From Streptomyces sp. AM 2-1-1 (GTDB lineage: Bacteria; Actinomycetota; Actinomycetes; Streptomycetales; Streptomycetaceae): a stretch of 64,000 bases of DNA. The translations under genes and the position numbers were made by a program. Under the pieces are notes generated by a model. It ran no database searches. It saw only the letters and a program-made list of their open reading frames with translations, and was not told the origin of the DNA. The stretch is taken from the NCBI RefSeq assembly GCF_029167645.1, contig NZ_CP119147.1, forward strand, positions 6,714,501 to 6,778,500, in the 5' to 3' direction. Of the stretch, positions 45,266 through 54,782 are shown one piece after another (position 1 is the first letter of the stretch; each line of letters begins with the position of its first letter).

Positions 45266-45643
45266 TCAGAAGACCGCGTCGGCCACCGCCGCTCCGGCGA
45301 AGGACAGCCCGACACCCGCCCCCACGGTGAGCACCAGGTAGCCTCCCGCGGTCCCCAGCCGCCGGGCCGAGGTGAGCGTCAGCAGTTCGTACGAGAACGT
45401 CGACCAGGTCGACAGGGCGCCGCAGAAGCCGGTGGCGAGCAGGAGTTGGACCCGGGTCCCCAGGTCCCCGTCGGTCGCGGCGGCGGAGACGAAGCCCAGT
45501 ACCAGTGCGGCCGGCGCGTTGGCGGCGAAGGTGCCCCACGGCAGGGCCGTGTGCAGGCGGTACTTGGCATCCACCCCGATCAGGTAACGCAGTGGCGCCC
45601 CCACCAGGCCGCCGGCGAGGACGAGCAGCCAGTCGACGATCAC
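45266..45643 (-). CDS. crcB: fluoride channel FluC/CrcB, second copy
   Basis: Four-helix fluoride exporter subunit of about 125 residues. GGLVGAPLRYLIGVDAKYRL, GTFAANAPAALVLGF and the signature GFCGALSTWSTFSYELLTL (polar track for fluoride). FluC channels are dual-topology dimers; two tandem genes usually encode oppositely oriented subunits of a heterodimer. GTG 45643 overlaps the stop of the upstream copy (GTGA), indicating translational coupling. Confidence 0.92.
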   Translation of the reverse strand: MIVDWLLVLAGGLVGAPLRYLIGVDAKYRLHTALPWGTFAANAPAALVLGFVSAAATDGDLGTRVQLLLATGFCGALSTWSTFSYELLTLTSARRLGTAGGYLVLTVGAGVGLSFAGAAVADAVF

Positions 45644-46134
45644 GCTTCCTCCGCGGGGTGGCCGGCGCGGCCTTCGTGACCGGGGTGGCCGCCCGTCCCG
45701 AGGAGCGCGTGGGTGGCCAGTGCGCCCACCGTGACGGCGGCCAGGGCGCCCACCACCGTCAGCACCAGGCAGCCGACCGCGTATCCGGGCCGTCCGTCGT
45801 CGAAGAGCTCCCGAACGTCGTCCGTGTAGTGCGAGAACGAGGTGAATCCGCCGAGCAGTCCGGTGCCCAGCAGAGGGCTCACCAGCCGGTGGGTGCCGGG
45901 AAACCTGAGCTTCACGGTGACCATCAGGACCCCTATGAGGAAGCACCCGACGACGTTGACCAGCAGGATCGTCCAGGGGAACGCCGTCGGGGCGTCGGGC
46001 CAGAGGCGTTCGGCCTCCCAGCGGGCGGCCGCCCCGGCGGCGCCACCGATCGCGACGGCTCCGACGACGGAGAGCTGGACCCCGGGATGGTGATCGGGGT
46101 GCGGAAAACGATGCAGGCGCATCTTCGTACTCAT
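45640..46134 (-). CDS. crcB: fluoride channel FluC/CrcB, first copy
   Basis: Four-helix FluC subunit of about 164 residues, longer than its partner due to an N-terminal His-rich MSTKMRLHRFPHPDHHPGVQ and a C-terminal GGHPGHEGRAGHPAEEA tail. Core motifs: GGAAGAAARWEAERL, WTILLVNVVGCFLIG and GLLGGFTSFSHYTDDVREL (fluoride track). It presumably pairs with the overlapping downstream copy and protects against fluoride. I looked for a fluoride riboswitch in 46135-46343 and saw no match to its conserved core. Confidence 0.9.
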   Translation of the reverse strand: MSTKMRLHRFPHPDHHPGVQLSVVGAVAIGGAAGAAARWEAERLWPDAPTAFPWTILLVNVVGCFLIGVLMVTVKLRFPGTHRLVSPLLGTGLLGGFTSFSHYTDDVRELFDDGRPGYAVGCLVLTVVGALAAVTVGALATHALLGTGGHPGHEGRAGHPAEEA

Positions 46135-46343: not shown

Positions 46344-47306
46344 TTGCCCCTCAACGAGCCGGACGCGGTCCGCCAGCTCGAACGCCGTCAGCCGAGCGCC
46401 TACCTGCTGGCGTCGGTGCGCGGATTCGGCCAGGTCGACCTGCAACCAAGTCTCTGGACCGGGGTCCTCATCCTCGCCGGACTCTGGGCGGCGGGGTGGC
46501 GCATCGGCCTCTTCGCCACCCTCGGCACCCTGATCTCCACCGCCGCCGCCTACGCAGTGCGCGCCGACCGCTCCGGCATCGCCCTCGGCCTCCAGGGCTA
46601 CTGCGGATGCCTCACCGGCATCGCCCTGGTCACCTATCTGGGGCACCACCCCGCCACCTACGTCCTGACCGTCGTCGGCGCCCTCGTGTGCACCCTGCTG
46701 ATGGCGGCTCTCGCCACCCTCCTGACACCCTTCGCGCTCTCCCCGCTCACCGCGCCCTTCTGCCTCGTCTCCGGCGTCATGGTGCTCGGCGCACCGTCGT
46801 TCGCCAGGATCTGGCACGGGGCGCCGAAGGGGGTGTCCAGCACCACGAGCGGGGACACCGGCATCACCTGGGACGACCTGTGGCACGCCTTCTTCACCAA
46901 CGTGTCGCAGATCTTCCTGGTCGACGCGTGGTACGTGGGCCTGATCATGCTCGTCGGCCTCGCCTGCGCCGGCCTGCGCGTCGTCGCGTTCGCGGCCGCC
47001 GGCAGCGTGGTCGGCATCGTCGCGGCGTGGGCGCTGGGCGCCCCCACCTCGCTGATCGCCGAGGGCATCTACGGATACAACGCCGTCCTCGTCGCCATCG
47101 CCGTCGGCGCGGTCTTCCTCGCCCCCACCGTGTGGAACGGCGCCTTCGCGCTCTTCGGCGCGGCCGCCACCACCGGTCTGACGGCCTCGCTCACCTCGCT
47201 CTTCAAACCCTTCGGCGGCCACACCTTCACGTGGCCGTTCATCCTCACGACCTGGGTACTCATGGCCGCGGTTCCCCTGCTACCGCGCTTCCGCAAGAGC
47301 GGCTGA
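46344..47306 (+). CDS. urea transporter (UT family)
   Basis: Channel-type urea transporter of about 320 residues with roughly ten helices in two pseudo-repeats. Typical stretches: GLWAAGWRIGLFATLGTLIS, GIALGLQGYCGCLTGIALVT (first repeat) and SLIAEGIYGYNAVLVAIAVG (second repeat, with the LxxxGIYGYN-type motif). It lets urea in down its gradient. TTG 46344 with GGGAG six bases upstream; ATG 46339 is out of frame. First gene of the urease module and transcribed with it, ureA starting 58 bases on. Confidence 0.9.
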   Translation: MPLNEPDAVRQLERRQPSAYLLASVRGFGQVDLQPSLWTGVLILAGLWAAGWRIGLFATLGTLISTAAAYAVRADRSGIALGLQGYCGCLTGIALVTYLGHHPATYVLTVVGALVCTLLMAALATLLTPFALSPLTAPFCLVSGVMVLGAPSFARIWHGAPKGVSSTTSGDTGITWDDLWHAFFTNVSQIFLVDAWYVGLIMLVGLACAGLRVVAFAAAGSVVGIVAAWALGAPTSLIAEGIYGYNAVLVAIAVGAVFLAPTVWNGAFALFGAAATTGLTASLTSLFKPFGGHTFTWPFILTTWVLMAAVPLLPRFRKSG

Positions 47307-47364
47307 ACCCGCCCGCGCCGTACCCCGGACCCCTCTCCGTCACGCACCCTGGAAGGTACCGACG

Positions 47365-47670
47365 ATGAACCTCGCACCGCGCGAGATCGACAAACTGCTG
47401 GTGTACGTCGTGGCCGACCTGGCCCGCAAACGCCAGGGCCGTGGTCTCAAGCTCAACTACAGCGAGTCCGTGGCCCTGATCTCCGAGGCGATCCTGGAGG
47501 CGGCCCGGGACGGCAAGAGCGTCGCCGACTGCATGGAGCTCGGCCGTCACGTCGTGGGCGAGGCCGACACCATGCCCGGGGTGCGGGAGATGCTCGGCCT
47601 GCTGCAGATCGAGGCGTCGTTCGTGGACGGCACCAAGCTGGTGTCCTGTCACGACCCCATCGGCGGATGA
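47365..47670 (+). CDS. ureA: urease subunit gamma
   Basis: Small structural subunit of about 101 residues, normal length. Diagnostic start MNLAPREIDKLLVYVVADLA, RKRQGRGLKLNYSESVALIS, and the late MPGVREMLGLLQIEASFVDG TK. Assembles with UreB and UreC into the nickel enzyme that hydrolyses urea to ammonia and carbamate. GGAAGG eight bases before the ATG. The next gene overlaps its stop by four bases (ATGA). Confidence 0.97.
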   Translation: MNLAPREIDKLLVYVVADLARKRQGRGLKLNYSESVALISEAILEAARDGKSVADCMELGRHVVGEADTMPGVREMLGLLQIEASFVDGTKLVSCHDPIGG

Positions 47671-48728
47671 CCATGGTGTCCGACCACCGGGTGATCGCCG
47701 TCTGCGGCCACGAGGCCGGGTACGGAACGGCCCTGCGCGACCTCGAAGGCTCCGGCGTCACGGTCGTGTCCGACGGCCGCGAGCTGTACCGGGCCGTCGC
47801 CGGGACGGGACCGGGCGAGGAGCCCGTCTGCGTCGTGCCGATGACCCTGGGGCGGGACGCGCGGCTCGTCGCCGACACCGCCCGGACCCTCCGCGCGCTG
47901 CCGCCGGGCACCGGCCCCCGGGCCCTGCTCGCCGCACCCTTCGGTACGTCCCAGCACCTCGTCGCCTGGCTGCGCGCGGCGGCCGGCCGGGTGCCCGCCG
48001 GCTCCGCGCTGCTCGTCACCGCCCCCGCCGGCGACCCGTTCGACGACGCCGAGTTGCACCGGGTCACGGCCCTGGTCCGCCGGTACGGCAACCACCCCCT
48101 CGTCGAGGTCGCGTTCACCGGCGGCGACCCCGATCCGGCGGAGGGGGTCCGGCGCTGCCTCCTCCTCGGCGCGGACCGGGTGGTGGTCCTGTCGGCCGCC
48201 TTCGCCGTGCCGGACCCGGCGGCCCCCGTCGCACCGGATCTGCCCGGCATCCGCGTCGAGCACGCCGGCCCCCCGGTCTCCCGGACCGCGCTGGCGAGGA
48301 TCCTCGCCGAACGGGCCGTCGACGCCCGACGCCGCTGGTCCGAGCGGAACGACGACGGAATCTCCGCCGGGCTCTCCGCGGCCGACGACCACGGACACGG
48401 CCACACCCACCCCCCGGGCGAGGGCCACGACCACGACGGCCACAGCCACTCCCCGGGCGAGGGCCACGACCACGACGGTCACAGCCACCGGCACAGCCAT
48501 CCTTCGGGCGAGGAGCACGACCACGCCCACGAGCACCCCGGTCACGGTCACACCCACCCCCCGGGTGAGGACCACGCCCACGACCACGGCCACCCGCACG
48601 ACCACCACGGCCACCCGCGCGACCACGACCGCCACCGGCCCGAATCCGGCCACCACCACGGCCCCTCGCATCCGCACCCCGGCACGACCGCCGACGGCGC
48701 GGCCCGACCCGTCAGGAGCTCCGCATGA
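47667..48728 (+). CDS. CbiX/SirB-like chelatase protein with His-rich tail, in urease operon
   Basis: Protein of about 353 residues between ureA and ureB, overlapping both by four bases. Residues 1-230 resemble a CbiX/sirohydrochlorin chelatase half-fold: [58 protein letters not shown] and [20 protein letters not shown], with His in GHEAG and SQH as possible metal ligands. Residues 240-345 are extremely His/Asp-rich (units like [13 protein letters not shown]), as in nickel-storing UreE or HypB tails. No ureE is present in the module. I infer nickel storage or delivery to urease; a tetrapyrrole chelatase role is the alternative. Confidence 0.8.
48412..48489 (+). repeat. 39-bp tandem repeat encoding His-rich units
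   Basis: Two nearly identical 39-base units (48412-48450 and 48451-48489) each encode [13 protein letters not shown] or H. Degenerate copies continue to about 48,690. The tail length may vary among strains by slippage. Confidence 0.75.
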
Positions 48729-49240
48729 CGTTCCGCCAGAAGTACCTCTACGGCGAGGACCCCGTCGAGATCAACGCGGGGCGCCGGACGGTCAAGCTGA
48801 CCGTCAGCAACACCGGCGACCGCGCGATCCAGATCGGCTCGCACTACCACTTCTTCGAGGTCAACTCGGCGCTGTCGTTCGACCGGCAGAAGGCGCTCGG
48901 CATGCACCTCAACATCCCCGCCGGCACCTCCGTGCGCGTCGAGCCGGGCGGCACCCGCGAGGTGGAGCTCTGCACCTACGCCGGGACGGGCCGCCTCGTC
49001 GGCTTCAGCGGGCTGCTCAACGGCAGCCTCGCCTCCCACCCCGCCCGGGTCGAAGCGGTACGCAAGGCCATCGAGCGCGGATTCGAGGGAGCCGGCCCCC
49101 GCCGCACCTGGGCCGACGACAGCGAGACGCGGTCCAAGGCGACACCGCGGGGCGGCGGCGCCGCGCCGTCCACCGAGAAGGGCGGCCAGGCGGCCGACAA
49201 GCAGGCCAAGTCCAAATCCAAGAAGAAGGGTTCACGCTGA
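48725..49240 (+). CDS. ureB: urease subunit beta with C-terminal extension
   Basis: Structural subunit; 171 residues, compared with about 103 for the family. The core is canonical: [59 protein letters not shown] and [12 protein letters not shown]. The last 50 residues are a polar, Lys-rich tail ending [13 protein letters not shown], of unknown use. ATG 48725 overlaps the His-rich gene's stop (ATGA), and its own stop overlaps ureC (TGATG), so translation is coupled. Confidence 0.95.
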
Positions 49241-50964
49241 TGCCCATCCTGCCGCGCAAGCAGTACACCGACATGTTCGGCCCCACCGTCGGTGACCGCT
49301 TCCACCTCGCCGACACCAACCTCGTCGTCGAGGTCGAGAAGGACTTCAGCGAGGGCCAGTACGGCGACGAGGTCCTCTACGGCGGTGGCAAGACCATGCG
49401 CGACGGCATGGCCTCCGACCCGCAGGCCACCAGCGCCCAGGGCGCGCTGGACACCGTCATCACCAACGTCGTCCTCATCGACCCCGTCGTCGGCGTGGTC
49501 AAGTGCGACATCGGCATCAAGAACGGGCTCATCGCGGGCATCGGCAAGTCCGGCAACCCGCAGACCCAGAACAACGTGCACCCCGACCTCATCATCGGCC
49601 CCGGCACCGAAGCCATCGCCGGCGAGCACCTCATCGCCACCGCCGGAGCCATCGACACCCACGTCCACCTGATCGCCCCTCAGCAGGCGGAACAGGCACT
49701 CACCAACGGCATCACCACCCTCATCGGCGGCGGCACCGGACCTTCCGACGGCACCAACGGCACCACCTGCACCCCGGGTCCGTACAACATCGCCCGGTTC
49801 CTGCAGGCGGCGGAGACCTTCCCGGTCAACCTCGGCATCATGGCCAAGGGGAACGGCAGCCTGCCGGAGGCGCTCAACGAGCAGATCGTGGCCGGAGCCT
49901 GCGCCCTCAAGGTGCACGAGGACTGGGGCGCGACCCCGGCCGTCATCGACAACGCCCTCAGCGTCGCCGACCAGCACGACGTCCAGGTCGCCATCCACAC
50001 CGACAGCCTCAACGAGAGCGGATTCTTCGAGGACACCCGCTCCGCGATCGACGGCCGCACCATCCACACCTTCCACAGCGAGGGCGCGGGCGGCGGCCAC
50101 GCCCCCGACATCATGCGTGTGGCGGGCGAGCCGAACGTACTGCCCTCCTCCACCAACCCGACGCTGCCGTACACCAAGAACTCGGTGGACGAACTGCTCG
50201 ACATGGTCATGGTCTGCCACCACCTCAGCCACGACATCCCCGAGGACGTCTCCTTCGCCGACAGCCGGGTCCGCGCCGAGACGATCGCCGCCGAGTCGGT
50301 CCTGCACGACCTCGGCGTGATCAGCATGTTCTCCTCGGACTCGCAGGCGATGGGCCGGGTGGGGGAGTCCGTCACCCGGGCGTTCCAGACCGCCCACCAC
50401 TGCAAGGACAAGCTGGGCACGCTGGAGGGCGACTCCGCCCGCAACGACAACCAGCGGGTGCTGCGCTACCTGGCCAAGGTCACCATCAATCCGGCCATCG
50501 CCACCGGCATCTCCGACCACATCGGTTCGATCGAGAAGGGCAAGCTCGCCGACATCGTGCTCTGGCCCATCCACTCCTTCGGCGCCAAGCCGAAGATGGT
50601 GATCAAGGGCGGCATCATCTCCTGGGCGCAGATGGGCGACCCCAACGCCTCGCTGCCCACGCCGCAGCCGGTGATCTACCGCCCCATGTTCGGGCAGTAC
50701 GGCAAGGCGTTGCAGGCGACGCACGCCACCTTCATGTCGCAGGCCGGCATCGCCGCCGGAGTCCCCGCCGAGCTGGGGCTGGAACGCCTGATCCTGCCGG
50801 TGAGCCGGACGCGGACGATCGGCAAGCACAACATGATCCGCAACGACGCCCTGCCGGACATCAAGGTGGACCCGGAGACCTTCAAGGTCACGCTCAACGG
50901 CAAGGTCGCCACCATCGACCCCGCCCAGGAACTCCCCCTCAACCACCTGTTCTTCCTGGTCTAG
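49240..50964 (+). CDS. ureC: urease subunit alpha (catalytic)
   Basis: Catalytic subunit of 574 residues. Nickel ligands and catalytic residues are intact: [12 protein letters not shown] (His141, His143), the carbamylated lysine [11 protein letters not shown] (Lys224), [11 protein letters not shown] (His253), [17 protein letters not shown] (His279), the mobile flap VCHHLS (Cys326, His327, His328) and [12 protein letters not shown] (Asp367). HVHLIAPQQ differs slightly from the common HIHWICPQQ. It should be fully active once nickel is inserted by UreD/F/G. Confidence 0.97.
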
Positions 50965-50972
50965 GGCGACGC

Positions 50973-51719
50973 GTGTACCAGGAAGAGGGCGACCCCGCCC
51001 CGATGACGGGGGCGGGGCCCGCGGGCGGCACCCAAGGGCTCGGAATGCTGCTGGTCAGCCTCCAGCTGACCGACTCGGCGTTCCCGAGCGGCTTCTACAC
51101 GCTCTCGCACAGCCTGGAGGGGTACGCGCAGGCCGGGGCGGTCGACGCCGACAGCCTGCCGTCCCTCCTGGCGGACCTGCTGCTGCACGCCGTGGGTCCC
51201 GCCGACGCCACCGCGCTCGCACTCGCCCACCGGGCGACGTGTGCGGGCGACCCGGAGGCCGTCGTCGGGATCGACGAGCACCTGTTCGCCACCAAGCTCG
51301 GACGGGAGATGCGCCAGGCCGCCACCCGGACCGGTCGGCAGCTCCTCGACCTCGGGCAGGAGGTCTTCGACCGTCCCCAGATCGGCGACTACTTCGGCCG
51401 TGTCGTACGCCGGGAAGCTCCCGGCACGCAGGCGGTGGCCGCCGGCGTCATCTACGCGGCGACCGGCGTGCCGGTCCGCCAGGCCGTCGCCTCGGACCTC
51501 TTCGCGTTCTGCGCGAGCTTCGCGGGTGCGGCCCTGCGCCTGCGGCTCACCGACCACCGCAGGGCCCAGACCCTGCTGTGGGGCGTCGCTCCCGTCATCG
51601 GGACCGCCGTCGAGGCCGCGCTGCGCCGCGAACTCGCCGACGTCGGCGCCTCCGCCTTCGCCTCGGACGTCATGTCCGGCCGCCACGAACGGGCCGAGGC
51701 CCGGCTCTTCGCCAGCTGA
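50973..51719 (+). CDS. ureF: urease accessory protein UreF
   Basis: Maturation factor of about 248 residues that joins UreD and UreG in the nickel-insertion complex. UreF signature: LQLTDSAFPSGFYTLSHSLE near the N terminus, then LGREMRQAATRTGRQLLDLG and ASDLFAFCASFAGAALRL, with the C-terminal SGRHERAEARLFAS. GTG 50973 has AGGG six bases upstream; ATG 51003 is an alternative. Begins eight bases after ureC. Confidence 0.93.
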   Translation: MYQEEGDPAPMTGAGPAGGTQGLGMLLVSLQLTDSAFPSGFYTLSHSLEGYAQAGAVDADSLPSLLADLLLHAVGPADATALALAHRATCAGDPEAVVGIDEHLFATKLGREMRQAATRTGRQLLDLGQEVFDRPQIGDYFGRVVRREAPGTQAVAAGVIYAATGVPVRQAVASDLFAFCASFAGAALRLRLTDHRRAQTLLWGVAPVIGTAVEAALRRELADVGASAFASDVMSGRHERAEARLFAS

Positions 51720-51741
51720 CCCCACCACTCACGGAGCACCC

Positions 51742-52362
51742 ATGGACGACAACGTACTGCGCGTCGGAATCGGCGGACCGGTCGGTTCCGGCAAGACCGC
51801 CCTCATCGAGGCACTCGTACCCCTGCTGATCGAGCGGGGCCGTCGCCCCGCCGTCATCACCAACGACATCTACACCCAGGAGGACGCCCAGCACGTCCGC
51901 CGCACCCTCGCCGGGGTGCTGGACCCGGAGCGGGTCGTCGGCGTGGAGACGGGTGCCTGCCCGCACACCGCCGTACGGGACGACCCCACCATGAACCTCG
52001 CCGCCGGCGCCGAGATGCTGGAGCGCTTCCCCGACACCGACACGCTGCTGTACGAGTCCGGCGGCGACAACCTCACCCTCACCTTCAGCCCGGCGCTCGT
52101 GGACCTCTTCCTCTTCGTGCTCGACACCGCCGAGGGCGAGAAGATGCCGCGCAAGCGGGGACCGGGCATCACCGAATGCGACCTCCTCGTGATCAACAAG
52201 ATCGACATCGCGCAGTACGTACGCACCGACATCGGCGTCATGGAGTCGGACGCCCACCGGGTCCGTGACAACCGCCCGGTCGTCCTCACCGACTGTCTGA
52301 CCGGCGTGGGCATCGACGACATCGCGCTCTACCTGGAATCGCGCCGCAAGGTCCTGATCTGA
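51742..52362 (+). CDS. ureG: urease accessory GTPase UreG
   Basis: SIMIBI-class GTPase of 206 residues that delivers nickel to UreC. P-loop GIGGPVGSGKTALIEAL, NDIYTQEDAQHVRRT, metal-binding GVETGACPHTAVRDD (CPH), ESGGDNLTLTFSPALVDL, VINKIDIA (guanine) and TDCLTGVGIDD. GGAG seven bases before the ATG. No His-rich N terminus, unlike some UreG proteins; the histidines in this operon are on the CbiX-like protein instead. Confidence 0.97.
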   Translation: MDDNVLRVGIGGPVGSGKTALIEALVPLLIERGRRPAVITNDIYTQEDAQHVRRTLAGVLDPERVVGVETGACPHTAVRDDPTMNLAAGAEMLERFPDTDTLLYESGGDNLTLTFSPALVDLFLFVLDTAEGEKMPRKRGPGITECDLLVINKIDIAQYVRTDIGVMESDAHRVRDNRPVVLTDCLTGVGIDDIALYLESRRKVLI

Positions 52363-52363
52363 C

Positions 52364-53323
52364 GTGCGGTCCACTCCGCCCGCCCCCGGAACCGACCGGC
52401 TGACCCCCGCGTACTACGCCGCGGTCCGCGTCCCCCCGGACGTCGAGGCCCTGGCGTCGGTACCCGACACCCTCGCCGCGGGCTCCCCGGCCAAGGTGGG
52501 CGTGCTCGACCTCGCCTTCGAGGTGCGGGGCGGGCGGACCGAACTCGTCGAGCGCTACCAGAAGTCGCCCCTGCAGATCATGCGCCCGCTGTGGATCGAC
52601 CCCGCCATGCCCGGCATGAGCCACGTCTACCTGATGGCCACCGGTGGCGGGGTCGCCCAGGCCGACCGCTACCGGACGGACTTCCGGTGCGGGCCCGGCA
52701 CCCAGGTGCACCTGACCACCCAGGCGGCCACCAAGGTCTTCCGGATGGAGCACGACTTCGCGAGCCAGCGGGTGCACCTGACGGCGGAGGAGGGAAGCTA
52801 CGTCGAGTACCTGCCGGACCCGCTGATCCTGTTCAAGGACGCACGGTTCTATCAGCGCACCGAGGTCACGGTCGCGCCCGGCGCGACCGTGGTGCTCGGC
52901 GACACCCTCACCGCCGGGCGGCTCGCCCGCGGCGAGCGCCACGACTACCGCGTACTCGCCACCGACCTGCGGTTCGCCCGCCCTGACGGCACCCTCCTCG
53001 CCGTCGACACCGTGCGCCTGACCCCGGGCGGACCCGGCGGGGGAGTGGTGGGTCCGGGGGTGTTCGCCGGGTACGACCACGCCGCCTCGGTCTTCGTCGT
53101 CACCGACCGGGTCCCGGCCACGGAGGTGGCCGACACGCTGCACGCCGCGCTGGCCGGTTCCGGCGTTCTCTTCGGGGTCAGCACACTGCCCGGGGAGTGC
53201 GGCGCCTGGGTCCGGTTCCTGGACGACAGCCCCGTCCGGGTCGCCGCCGCCCACGACGCCGTCCGCCACGCGGTGCACCTGCTGCTCACCGGCCATCACG
53301 CTCCGGACCTGCGCAAACCGTAG
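52364..53323 (+). CDS. ureD: urease accessory protein UreD
   Basis: Scaffold protein of about 319 residues for the UreD-F-G complex, thought to channel nickel to the apoenzyme. Signature parts: VGVLDLAFEVRGGRTELVER, YLMATGGGVAQADRYRTDFR, HLTTQAATKVFRMEHDFASQ and YLPDPLILFKDARFYQRTEV. GTG 52364 lies next to the ureG stop (TGACGTG). Last urease gene of the operon. Confidence 0.94.
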   Translation: MRSTPPAPGTDRLTPAYYAAVRVPPDVEALASVPDTLAAGSPAKVGVLDLAFEVRGGRTELVERYQKSPLQIMRPLWIDPAMPGMSHVYLMATGGGVAQADRYRTDFRCGPGTQVHLTTQAATKVFRMEHDFASQRVHLTAEEGSYVEYLPDPLILFKDARFYQRTEVTVAPGATVVLGDTLTAGRLARGERHDYRVLATDLRFARPDGTLLAVDTVRLTPGGPGGGVVGPGVFAGYDHAASVFVVTDRVPATEVADTLHAALAGSGVLFGVSTLPGECGAWVRFLDDSPVRVAAAHDAVRHAVHLLLTGHHAPDLRKP

Positions 53324-53432
53324 TCCGTCTCCGGCCGTTCACGCCGAGCGGACGCACATGGCCCACCCGGCTCGGTCCGCCCCTCCGCCACTGCCCCCAT
53401 CAAGCCGCCCCCACCCCCCGAGGTGCTTGCCG

Positions 53433-54782
53433 ATGAACACCGCTCCCGCGCCGATGCCGCCCGCGTACGACTCCGGCGACACCGCCTGGCTGCTCGCAGC
53501 CACCGCCATGGTGCTGCTGATGACGCCCGGACTGGCGTTCTTCTACGGCGGCATGGTGCGCACCAAGCACGTGCTGATGATGGTCAAGATGAGCTTCGCC
53601 GCGCTCGCCTTCGGCACGCTCCTCTGGTGGGCCATCGGGTACACCCTCGCGTTCGGCCCCGACGTCGGGGGCGCCGGCGTGATCGGCGGCCTCGACCACG
53701 TCTTCATGCGGGGCATCGAGCTGACCACCCTGTCCGGGCACATCCCGACGTACGTCTACAGCACCTTCCAGATGGGTTTCGCCATCATCACGGTGGCTCT
53801 GATCAGCGGATCCATCGCCGACCGCGCCACCATGAAGGGCTGGCTCGTCTTCGTCGTGCTGTGGCTCCTGATCGTGTACGTTCCGCTCGCCCACTGGGTG
53901 TTCGACACCGACGGCTGGATCGTGAAGCACCTCGGCGCACTCGACTTCGCCGGCGGCCTGCCCGTCGAGCTCAACTCCGGTGTCGCCGGCCTCGCCGTCG
54001 CCCTGGTGCTGCGGGCGCCGCCCGACTTCGCCCGCCGCGAGGAACGGCCCAACAACATCCCGCTCGTCGTGATCGGTGTCGGCCTCCTGTGGTTCGGCTG
54101 GTTCGGCTTCAACTCCGGCTCCGCGCTGAGCGACCAGGGCACGGCGTCGGCGGCCTTCATCAACACCCAGCTCGGTGCCGCCGGTGCCATGGTCACCTGG
54201 CCGCTGGTGGAGAAGTGGCGCACCGGCAGGGTCACCACCATGGGAGTCGTCTCCTCGGCCGTCGCCGGCATGGTCGCCATCACCCCCGCCTGCGGCGAGA
54301 TCAACACCCTCGGCGCGGTCATCACCGGACTCGTGGTGGGCGCCGTCTGCGCCTTCGCCATCACGCTGAAGTACAAGTTCGGCGTGGACGACACCCTGGA
54401 CGTGGTCGGCGTGCACGGCGTCGGCGGTCTGATCGGCCTGATCATGGTCGGCCTCTTCGCCACCGCCCGGATCAGCGGCAAGGAAGGGCTCTTCTACGGC
54501 GGAGGGTGGGGACTCCTGGGCAAGCAGGTCCTCGCCATCCTCGCCGTGATCGCGTTCTCGTTCGTCCTCACCTGGCTCATCGCGAAGGTGGTCGACCTGA
54601 CCGTCGGCTTCCGCGACAAGGGGGAGTACGAGGGGGTGCCCGGGGAGGAGCAGGAGCGCGCGTACGACTTCCAGACCGCCGAACGCCTCGGCGCCCTGGT
54701 CTCCGGCAAGCCCGTGAACAGCGACGGCGAACTCGTCAAGCAGATCACCGCGCTGCTGCGCGCCCGGGAGGACTCCAAGTGA
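53433..54782 (+). CDS. amt: ammonium transporter (Amt family)
   Basis: Amt channel of about 449 residues with eleven helices. MTPGLAFFYGGMVRTKHVLM (helix 1-2), TYVYSTFQMGFAIITVALIS, GVAGLAVALVLRAPP, VGLLWFGWFGFNSGSAL (central His/Trp region) and VVGVHGVGGLIGLIMVGLFA (twin-His region). The C-terminal 70 residues are hydrophilic. It moves ammonium, the product of urease upstream. GAGGTG seven bases before the ATG. No GlnK or GlnD gene follows, unlike the amtB-glnK-glnD locus, so this is probably a second transporter dedicated to urea nitrogen. Confidence 0.94.
   Translation: MNTAPAPMPPAYDSGDTAWLLAATAMVLLMTPGLAFFYGGMVRTKHVLMMVKMSFAALAFGTLLWWAIGYTLAFGPDVGGAGVIGGLDHVFMRGIELTTLSGHIPTYVYSTFQMGFAIITVALISGSIADRATMKGWLVFVVLWLLIVYVPLAHWVFDTDGWIVKHLGALDFAGGLPVELNSGVAGLAVALVLRAPPDFARREERPNNIPLVVIGVGLLWFGWFGFNSGSALSDQGTASAAFINTQLGAAGAMVTWPLVEKWRTGRVTTMGVVSSAVAGMVAITPACGEINTLGAVITGLVVGAVCAFAITLKYKFGVDDTLDVVGVHGVGGLIGLIMVGLFATARISGKEGLFYGGGWGLLGKQVLAILAVIAFSFVLTWLIAKVVDLTVGFRDKGEYEGVPGEEQERAYDFQTAERLGALVSGKPVNSDGELVKQITALLRAREDSK

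Follow-up and report, generated by a model that had tools for sequence, protein, structure and literature searches.

A His-tailed chelatase-fold protein in actinobacterial urease operons: a probable nickel metallochaperone-like accessory protein

Introduction

The metallochaperone UreE hands nickel to UreG, from which it goes on to UreD, UreF and apo-urease, as outlined in parts of PMC7055735. In the same parts of that work the tail of K. aerogenes UreE is described as dispensable for urease activity, so the case for a His-tailed candidate such as the one presented here should not rest on its tail. Class II chelatases have two catalytic His residues, and the tail of CbiXL from B. megaterium is dispensable for cobalt insertion, according to parts of PMC7689651. 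Parts of a nickel/cobalt survey (PMC2667541) name CbiX a single time, as an indicator of B12 synthesis. Among the titles and abstract openings retrieved from the open-licence PMC literature, none describes a urease operon that includes a CbiX-like protein.

Here we analyse a gene, hereafter X, that lies between ureA and ureB in a 64-kb stretch of Streptomyces DNA (the window, i.e. the whole stretch that was analysed). Judged from sequence comparisons and a predicted structure, X is probably a nickel metallochaperone-like urease accessory protein built on a chelatase scaffold.

Organization of the operon

The host genome comprises 7.2 Mb in two contigs. Pfam and NCBIfam searches revealed the gene order urea transporter, ureA, X, ureB, ureC, ureF, ureG, ureD and Amt at 46,344-54,782 of the window, all on the + strand. 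A urea transporter of the UT family (46344..47306; PF03253, 281 bits) precedes ureA, which encodes the urease gamma subunit (47365..47670; PF00547). X follows (47667..48728; ATG start, 353 aa) and was recognised by its homologues, gene order and fold. As originally predicted, it overlaps both neighbours by four bases: ATGA at 47667-47670 contains the ureA stop and ATGA at 48725-48728 the ureB start. Downstream lie ureB, for the urease beta subunit (48725..49240; PF00699; 171 aa, including a Lys-rich stretch at the C-terminus that length comparison shows to be an extension), ureC, for the alpha subunit (49240..50964; Pfam and NCBIfam), ureF (51003..51719; PF01730), ureG (51742..52362; TIGR00101), ureD (52364..53323; PF01774) and the ammonium transporter gene (Amt, 53436..54782; PF00909). 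UreG contains CPH, starts with MDDNVLRVGIGG and lacks an N-terminal His extension. All six metal-site and flap motifs searched in the window UreC were found. Counts of UreC active-site motifs across loci were made with overly strict patterns and were discarded; the motif check concerns the window UreC alone.

The original prediction had listed ureF, ureG and ureD, and no ureE, in this module. This holds, and a ureE elsewhere in the genome, which it had regarded as evidence against its reading, was not found: UreE_N and UreE_C have 0 matches each in the window genome.

Two other features of the genome deserve mention. A second urease operon, of the canonical Streptomyces type, lies at G000:C1:6430000-6446000 (L040), and its UreG has a His-bearing N-terminus, MHLDHSHEGPAAVGADAARPDGSRRA (MHLDHSHEG...). 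Upstream of the X operon, on the - strand (45266-46134), are two adjoining small membrane proteins that we take to resemble a CrcB/Fluc fluoride channel pair.

Relatives of X and their genomic context

A protein search with X, in which the 8000 best candidates were scored, retrieved at least 339 relatives. Those named among the best 120 of the 339 are mostly Streptomyces proteins called 'cobalamin biosynthesis protein CbiX' or 'sirohydrochlorin chelatase', and 119 of these 120 have at least 7 His after the core, the remaining one being annotated as partial. A broader profile search raised the number of relatives to 645, and the best 120 of these include proteins from Cellulomonas, Arthrobacter, Nocardioides, Mumia, Georgenia and Kitasatospora.

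We assembled 49 X loci: 35 from a species-genome collection, the window, eight from the genus, L041, two from the order of genome G343 and two found via UreG. L093 shares an exact 2-kb stretch with L008 (Streptomyces sp. or43), as does L160 with L032; these are the same strains, hence the 49 loci amount to 47 distinct ones. X lies immediately after ureA in 49/49 loci, all of them urease operons (the ureA of L023 is only a remnant), and ureB starts within ~100 bases 3' of X in 42 of the 44 testable loci. Such conservation in 47 distinct loci indicates that X is not a chance open reading frame. The named families with X are Streptomycetaceae, Cellulomonadaceae, Sanguibacteraceae, Nocardioidaceae, Micrococcaceae and Microbacteriaceae. 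An association of the homologues mainly with cobalamin or siroheme genes, which the original prediction had held to speak against it, did not emerge from these loci, which were examined for their urease genes: the relatives whose context was seen are in urease operons. The relatives that carry the above database names are probably misnamed and belong with urease.

X is uncommon. It occurs in 9/121 genomes sampled from the genus, including G113, whose two contig-edge fragments of X are not among the 49 loci, in 2/296 genomes of the phylum sample and in 2/149 in the order of G343. When we searched from the window UreG instead, close UreGs (E <= 1e-68; 78-100% identity) were found in 4/314 class genomes, and all four encode X; three of them (G000, G335 and G786, the strain of L032) were already known and only G797 was new.

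The surroundings of the operon vary. Most Streptomyces X loci are flanked by both a urea transporter and Amt. In loci of Cellulomonas, Arthrobacter and related genera (L027-L034, L036-L039, L160) the urea transporter is encoded downstream of ureD, and the stretch contains no Amt match.

The position of X raises the possibility that it is an assembly factor or a bound part of apo-urease, which would aid UreA/UreB assembly or guard the nickel site until UreDFG arrives. The four-base overlap between X and ureB, present in 22 of the 28 testable Streptomyces loci, is consistent with such a role, as is the longer C-terminal extension of UreB in X operons (median 155 residues from the match start, n=42, vs 100, n=50; 49025-49240 in the window). 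However, this tight coupling is not conserved, since a gap of 19-90 bases separates X from ureB in 11 of the 12 named non-Streptomyces loci, and the chelatase fold and constant His tail described below would be left unexplained. In L023, moreover, X is still open together with ureF, ureG and ureD even though ureA and ureB-ureC are internally deleted. We therefore regard a role in assembly as quite unlikely.

The L023 locus of Streptomyces sp. A 4/2 (L023:7900-9010) is peculiar in itself: its ureA and ureB-ureC are remnants with seemingly clean in-frame internal deletions, which may be biological or an assembly artefact, and X, the three accessory genes and both transporters still match. The UreB extension is Lys-rich, with an ending of KKKGSR or a close variant in many Streptomyces, a feature less marked in other families. 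It is reminiscent of the extension of the Helicobacter urease that allows assembly into larger particles.

Core and tail of X

The long His/Asp-rich stretch seen in the original prediction was confirmed. The tail (residues 242-353; 48390..48728) has low pLDDT and contains 36 His and 18 Asp+Glu within 112 aa. With 36 His it provides the densest 100-aa stretch in His among open frames of at least 100 codons in the window; the runners-up have 23 His, in a wrong frame of ureC, and 20.

The tail follows an ordered core (~residues 8-240; 47688..48386; pLDDT mostly 89-97). Full-length X matched nothing in Pfam or NCBIfam at E <= 1, UreE_N and UreE_C included, and the core alone scores 14.8 bits against Pfam CbiX (PF01903), below the gathering cut-off of 22. 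A search of the PDB with an X sequence profile gave only chance matches (Rad23 fragments); a fold search with the predicted single-chain structure succeeded and identified a two-lobed chelatase fold. Profile comparison gave a probability of 47% with the two canonical chelatases of the window genome and of 96% with 13 Streptomyces CbiXL sequences, these being the ones that passed a motif filter (the filter removed five of the 18 fetched loci, degraded paralogues among them). Hence, the description of X as 'CbiX-like' stands for fold and profile, but not for family membership by score.

We aligned the window X with 121 relatives picked from the best 120 of each search. H15, E16, G37, R38, G62 and R63 are invariant in all 122 sequences and H97 is present in 121. 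The tail, in comparison, ranges from 23 to 115 residues and from 8 to 39 His. H15 and E16 belong to a GHE motif (G14 H15 E16; 47706..47714), the site of the apparently retained chelatase His; the case for H15 as the first catalytic His depends on the 47% alignment and the motif, because the 96% alignment starts at residue 25 of X. The second catalytic His is missing: no His at residues 59-96 reaches 85% conservation among the 122 sequences. Depending on the alignment, its position is occupied by the invariant R63 (G62 R63, 47850..47855, is profile-aligned with the second catalytic His of CbiXL) or by the variable residue 66. The MxCxxC Fe-S motif of CbiXL is found in 0/122 X and in 13/13 filtered Streptomyces CbiX. 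By these comparisons X keeps the chelatase fold but lacks defining features of working sirohydrochlorin chelatases.

It is very improbable, in this light, that X is a working chelatase making a nickel- or cobalt-tetrapyrrole tied to urease. The fold and the one catalytic His apparently kept would suit such an enzyme, but the second His has no conserved counterpart and CbiX-family genes above the cut-off exist elsewhere in the window genome. The ability of small CbiX-type enzymes to insert Ni or Co, which the original prediction had cited as background, does not transfer to X because of this missing residue.

Further CbiX-like proteins, with a degraded HGT or second-His motif, were seen in some genomes of the genus (L142, L155 and L157); these are apparently separate decayed chelatase paralogues.

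UreE and UreG in operons with and without X

The original prediction expected proteins like X to co-occur with ureABC and with the absence of ureE. The first part is upheld by the 49 loci. As for the second, no UreE_N match was found in 14/14 X genomes (including G113, with X only as fragments), which agrees with the expectation but carries little weight, since UreE is scarce anyway: it occurs in 5/49 ureG-bearing genomes of the phylum sample, and UreE_N exceeds the cut-off in 6/46 in the order of G343. With 5/49 as the base rate, finding none in 14 genomes is unsurprising by chance (~0.2, a hand calculation that ignores kinship). UreE_N was also absent from G449, an X-less sister genome, and most actinobacterial urease operons sampled are without UreE. 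We accordingly rejected UreE absence as the chief evidence. These figures come from the UreE_N search; a tblastn with UreE against the X loci was not counted, as only L094 among its six query frames is surely UreE.

The UreG proteins are more informative. We compared 124 UreGs with a called start, from 43 X operons, nine UreE operons and 72 operons with neither (L007, L013, L026 and L035 were excluded for contig ends, L103 because the motif was not found and L116 for lack of a start). In X operons UreG starts 5-7 residues ahead of the core, with no His there, in 43/43 cases, one of which is a repeat because of the duplicated strains. L160 and L161 are outside these counts, and both of their UreGs start short and without His. 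The UreGs of UreE operons also have no His in the extension (9/9), which has 3-4 residues in seven of them; a strict rule that UreE-type UreGs have no extension fails, as the other two have 10 and 23 residues. Where neither UreE nor X is present, the extension has at least one His in 42/72 operons, including all 11 other operons of the window genus that were fetched. In the remaining 30/72 the called extension is also His-free, although start calling is not flawless (the calls for L053, L113 and L114 look wrong), which puts the true count somewhat below 30 but above zero. Strict complementarity, with one of UreE, X or UreG His in each operon, was thus rejected. None of these devices is obligatory, and urease seems able to manage without them.

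The X-type UreGs form a single clade (support 100/98, and 99 in another tree), and so the linkage of X with urease may go back to one evolutionary event. In a larger quick tree L119 is sister to this clade (96). Both of these, joined by all nine UreE-type UreGs, make up a 53-row set (97) separate from the other 71. The trees have long branches, and the quick tree was built without bootstrap and without an outgroup to root it. L119/L158 have no X between ureA and ureB and no UreE, and their UreG extension is 38 residues long with six His. This one contrast would fit a UreE-using ancestor whose descendants replaced UreE, one branch with X and the other with a His-rich UreG.

Proposed role of X

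We lean, with modest confidence, towards X being a nickel-holding metallochaperone derived from CbiXL, UreE-like on another fold, that replaced UreE in this lineage. X would have arisen from a CbiXL-type cobaltochelatase already endowed with a His-rich tail, its gene would then have been placed between ureA and ureB in one actinobacterial urease clade, and the second catalytic His and the Fe-S motif would have been lost. The flexible tail may gather Ni(II). What was once the cleft of the chelatase (H15/E16, with R38, R63 and H97 also conserved) may hold the metal or pass it to the short UreG, from which it would go onward to UreD-UreF-urease. A more specific version, in which a single event converted a tetrapyrrole metal chelatase into a urease-specific nickel chaperone replacing UreE, the cleft serving for Ni(II) hand-off to UreG and the tail as a store, is one that we hold tentatively, at slightly less than an even chance.

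As for the original proposal that X substitutes for UreE, the operon-dedicated gene, the chelatase fold, the His tail, the short His-free UreG and the place of the X UreG clade among UreE-types all speak in its favour. The general scarcity of UreE and the 30 operons with no device weaken it, and the second urease of the window genome, with its own His-bearing UreG, counts against our preferred explanation. The operons with no device also suit an alternative in which X is an Hpn-like nickel store or buffer co-expressed with urease, and UreG obtains its nickel from the general pool, as in other operons without UreE; the wide variation of the tail is what one would expect of a store. We nevertheless consider this unlikely. 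X is bound to one urease clade and one position despite the second urease in the window genome, and the ordered core is over-conserved for mere storage. The invariant core speaks more for a specific role in transfer than for a mere store.

X is one defined, testable candidate for nickel supply to UreE-less actinobacterial ureases. If the metallochaperone role is true, a metal-inserting enzyme has been remodelled as a protein metallochaperone. UreE and the His-extended UreG would then be joined by an independent means of delivering nickel, employed in a single urease clade from Streptomyces, Cellulomonas, Arthrobacter and their kin and masked by database names like 'cobalamin biosynthesis protein CbiX'.

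Comparison with known systems

One of the closest described proteins is CbiXL (e.g. of B. megaterium, and Streptomyces CbiX), which shares with X the two-lobed class II fold, the N-terminal active-site His and the His-rich C-terminal tail. X differs in lacking the second catalytic His and MxCxxC, in its location in urease operons and in scoring under the Pfam CbiX cut-off. The sirohydrochlorin ferrochelatase SirB of B. subtilis (5zt7-5zta) has ~10% identity to X, in which its second catalytic His is not found and a tail is added. UreE resembles X as a urease-operon gene with a His-rich C-terminal tail (in some members) that occurs alongside a UreG without N-terminal His, but X has no UreE domain match, and the UreE fold differs from the chelatase fold. 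The His-extended UreG of Streptomyces and other Actinobacteria likewise brings a His-rich segment to urease maturation without UreE, whereas in X operons this segment sits on a separate protein of chelatase fold. Finally, Hpn and other His-rich nickel stores are similar to X in their His-rich sequence, but X combines such a sequence with a folded, conserved domain of ~230 residues and a strict linkage to urease.
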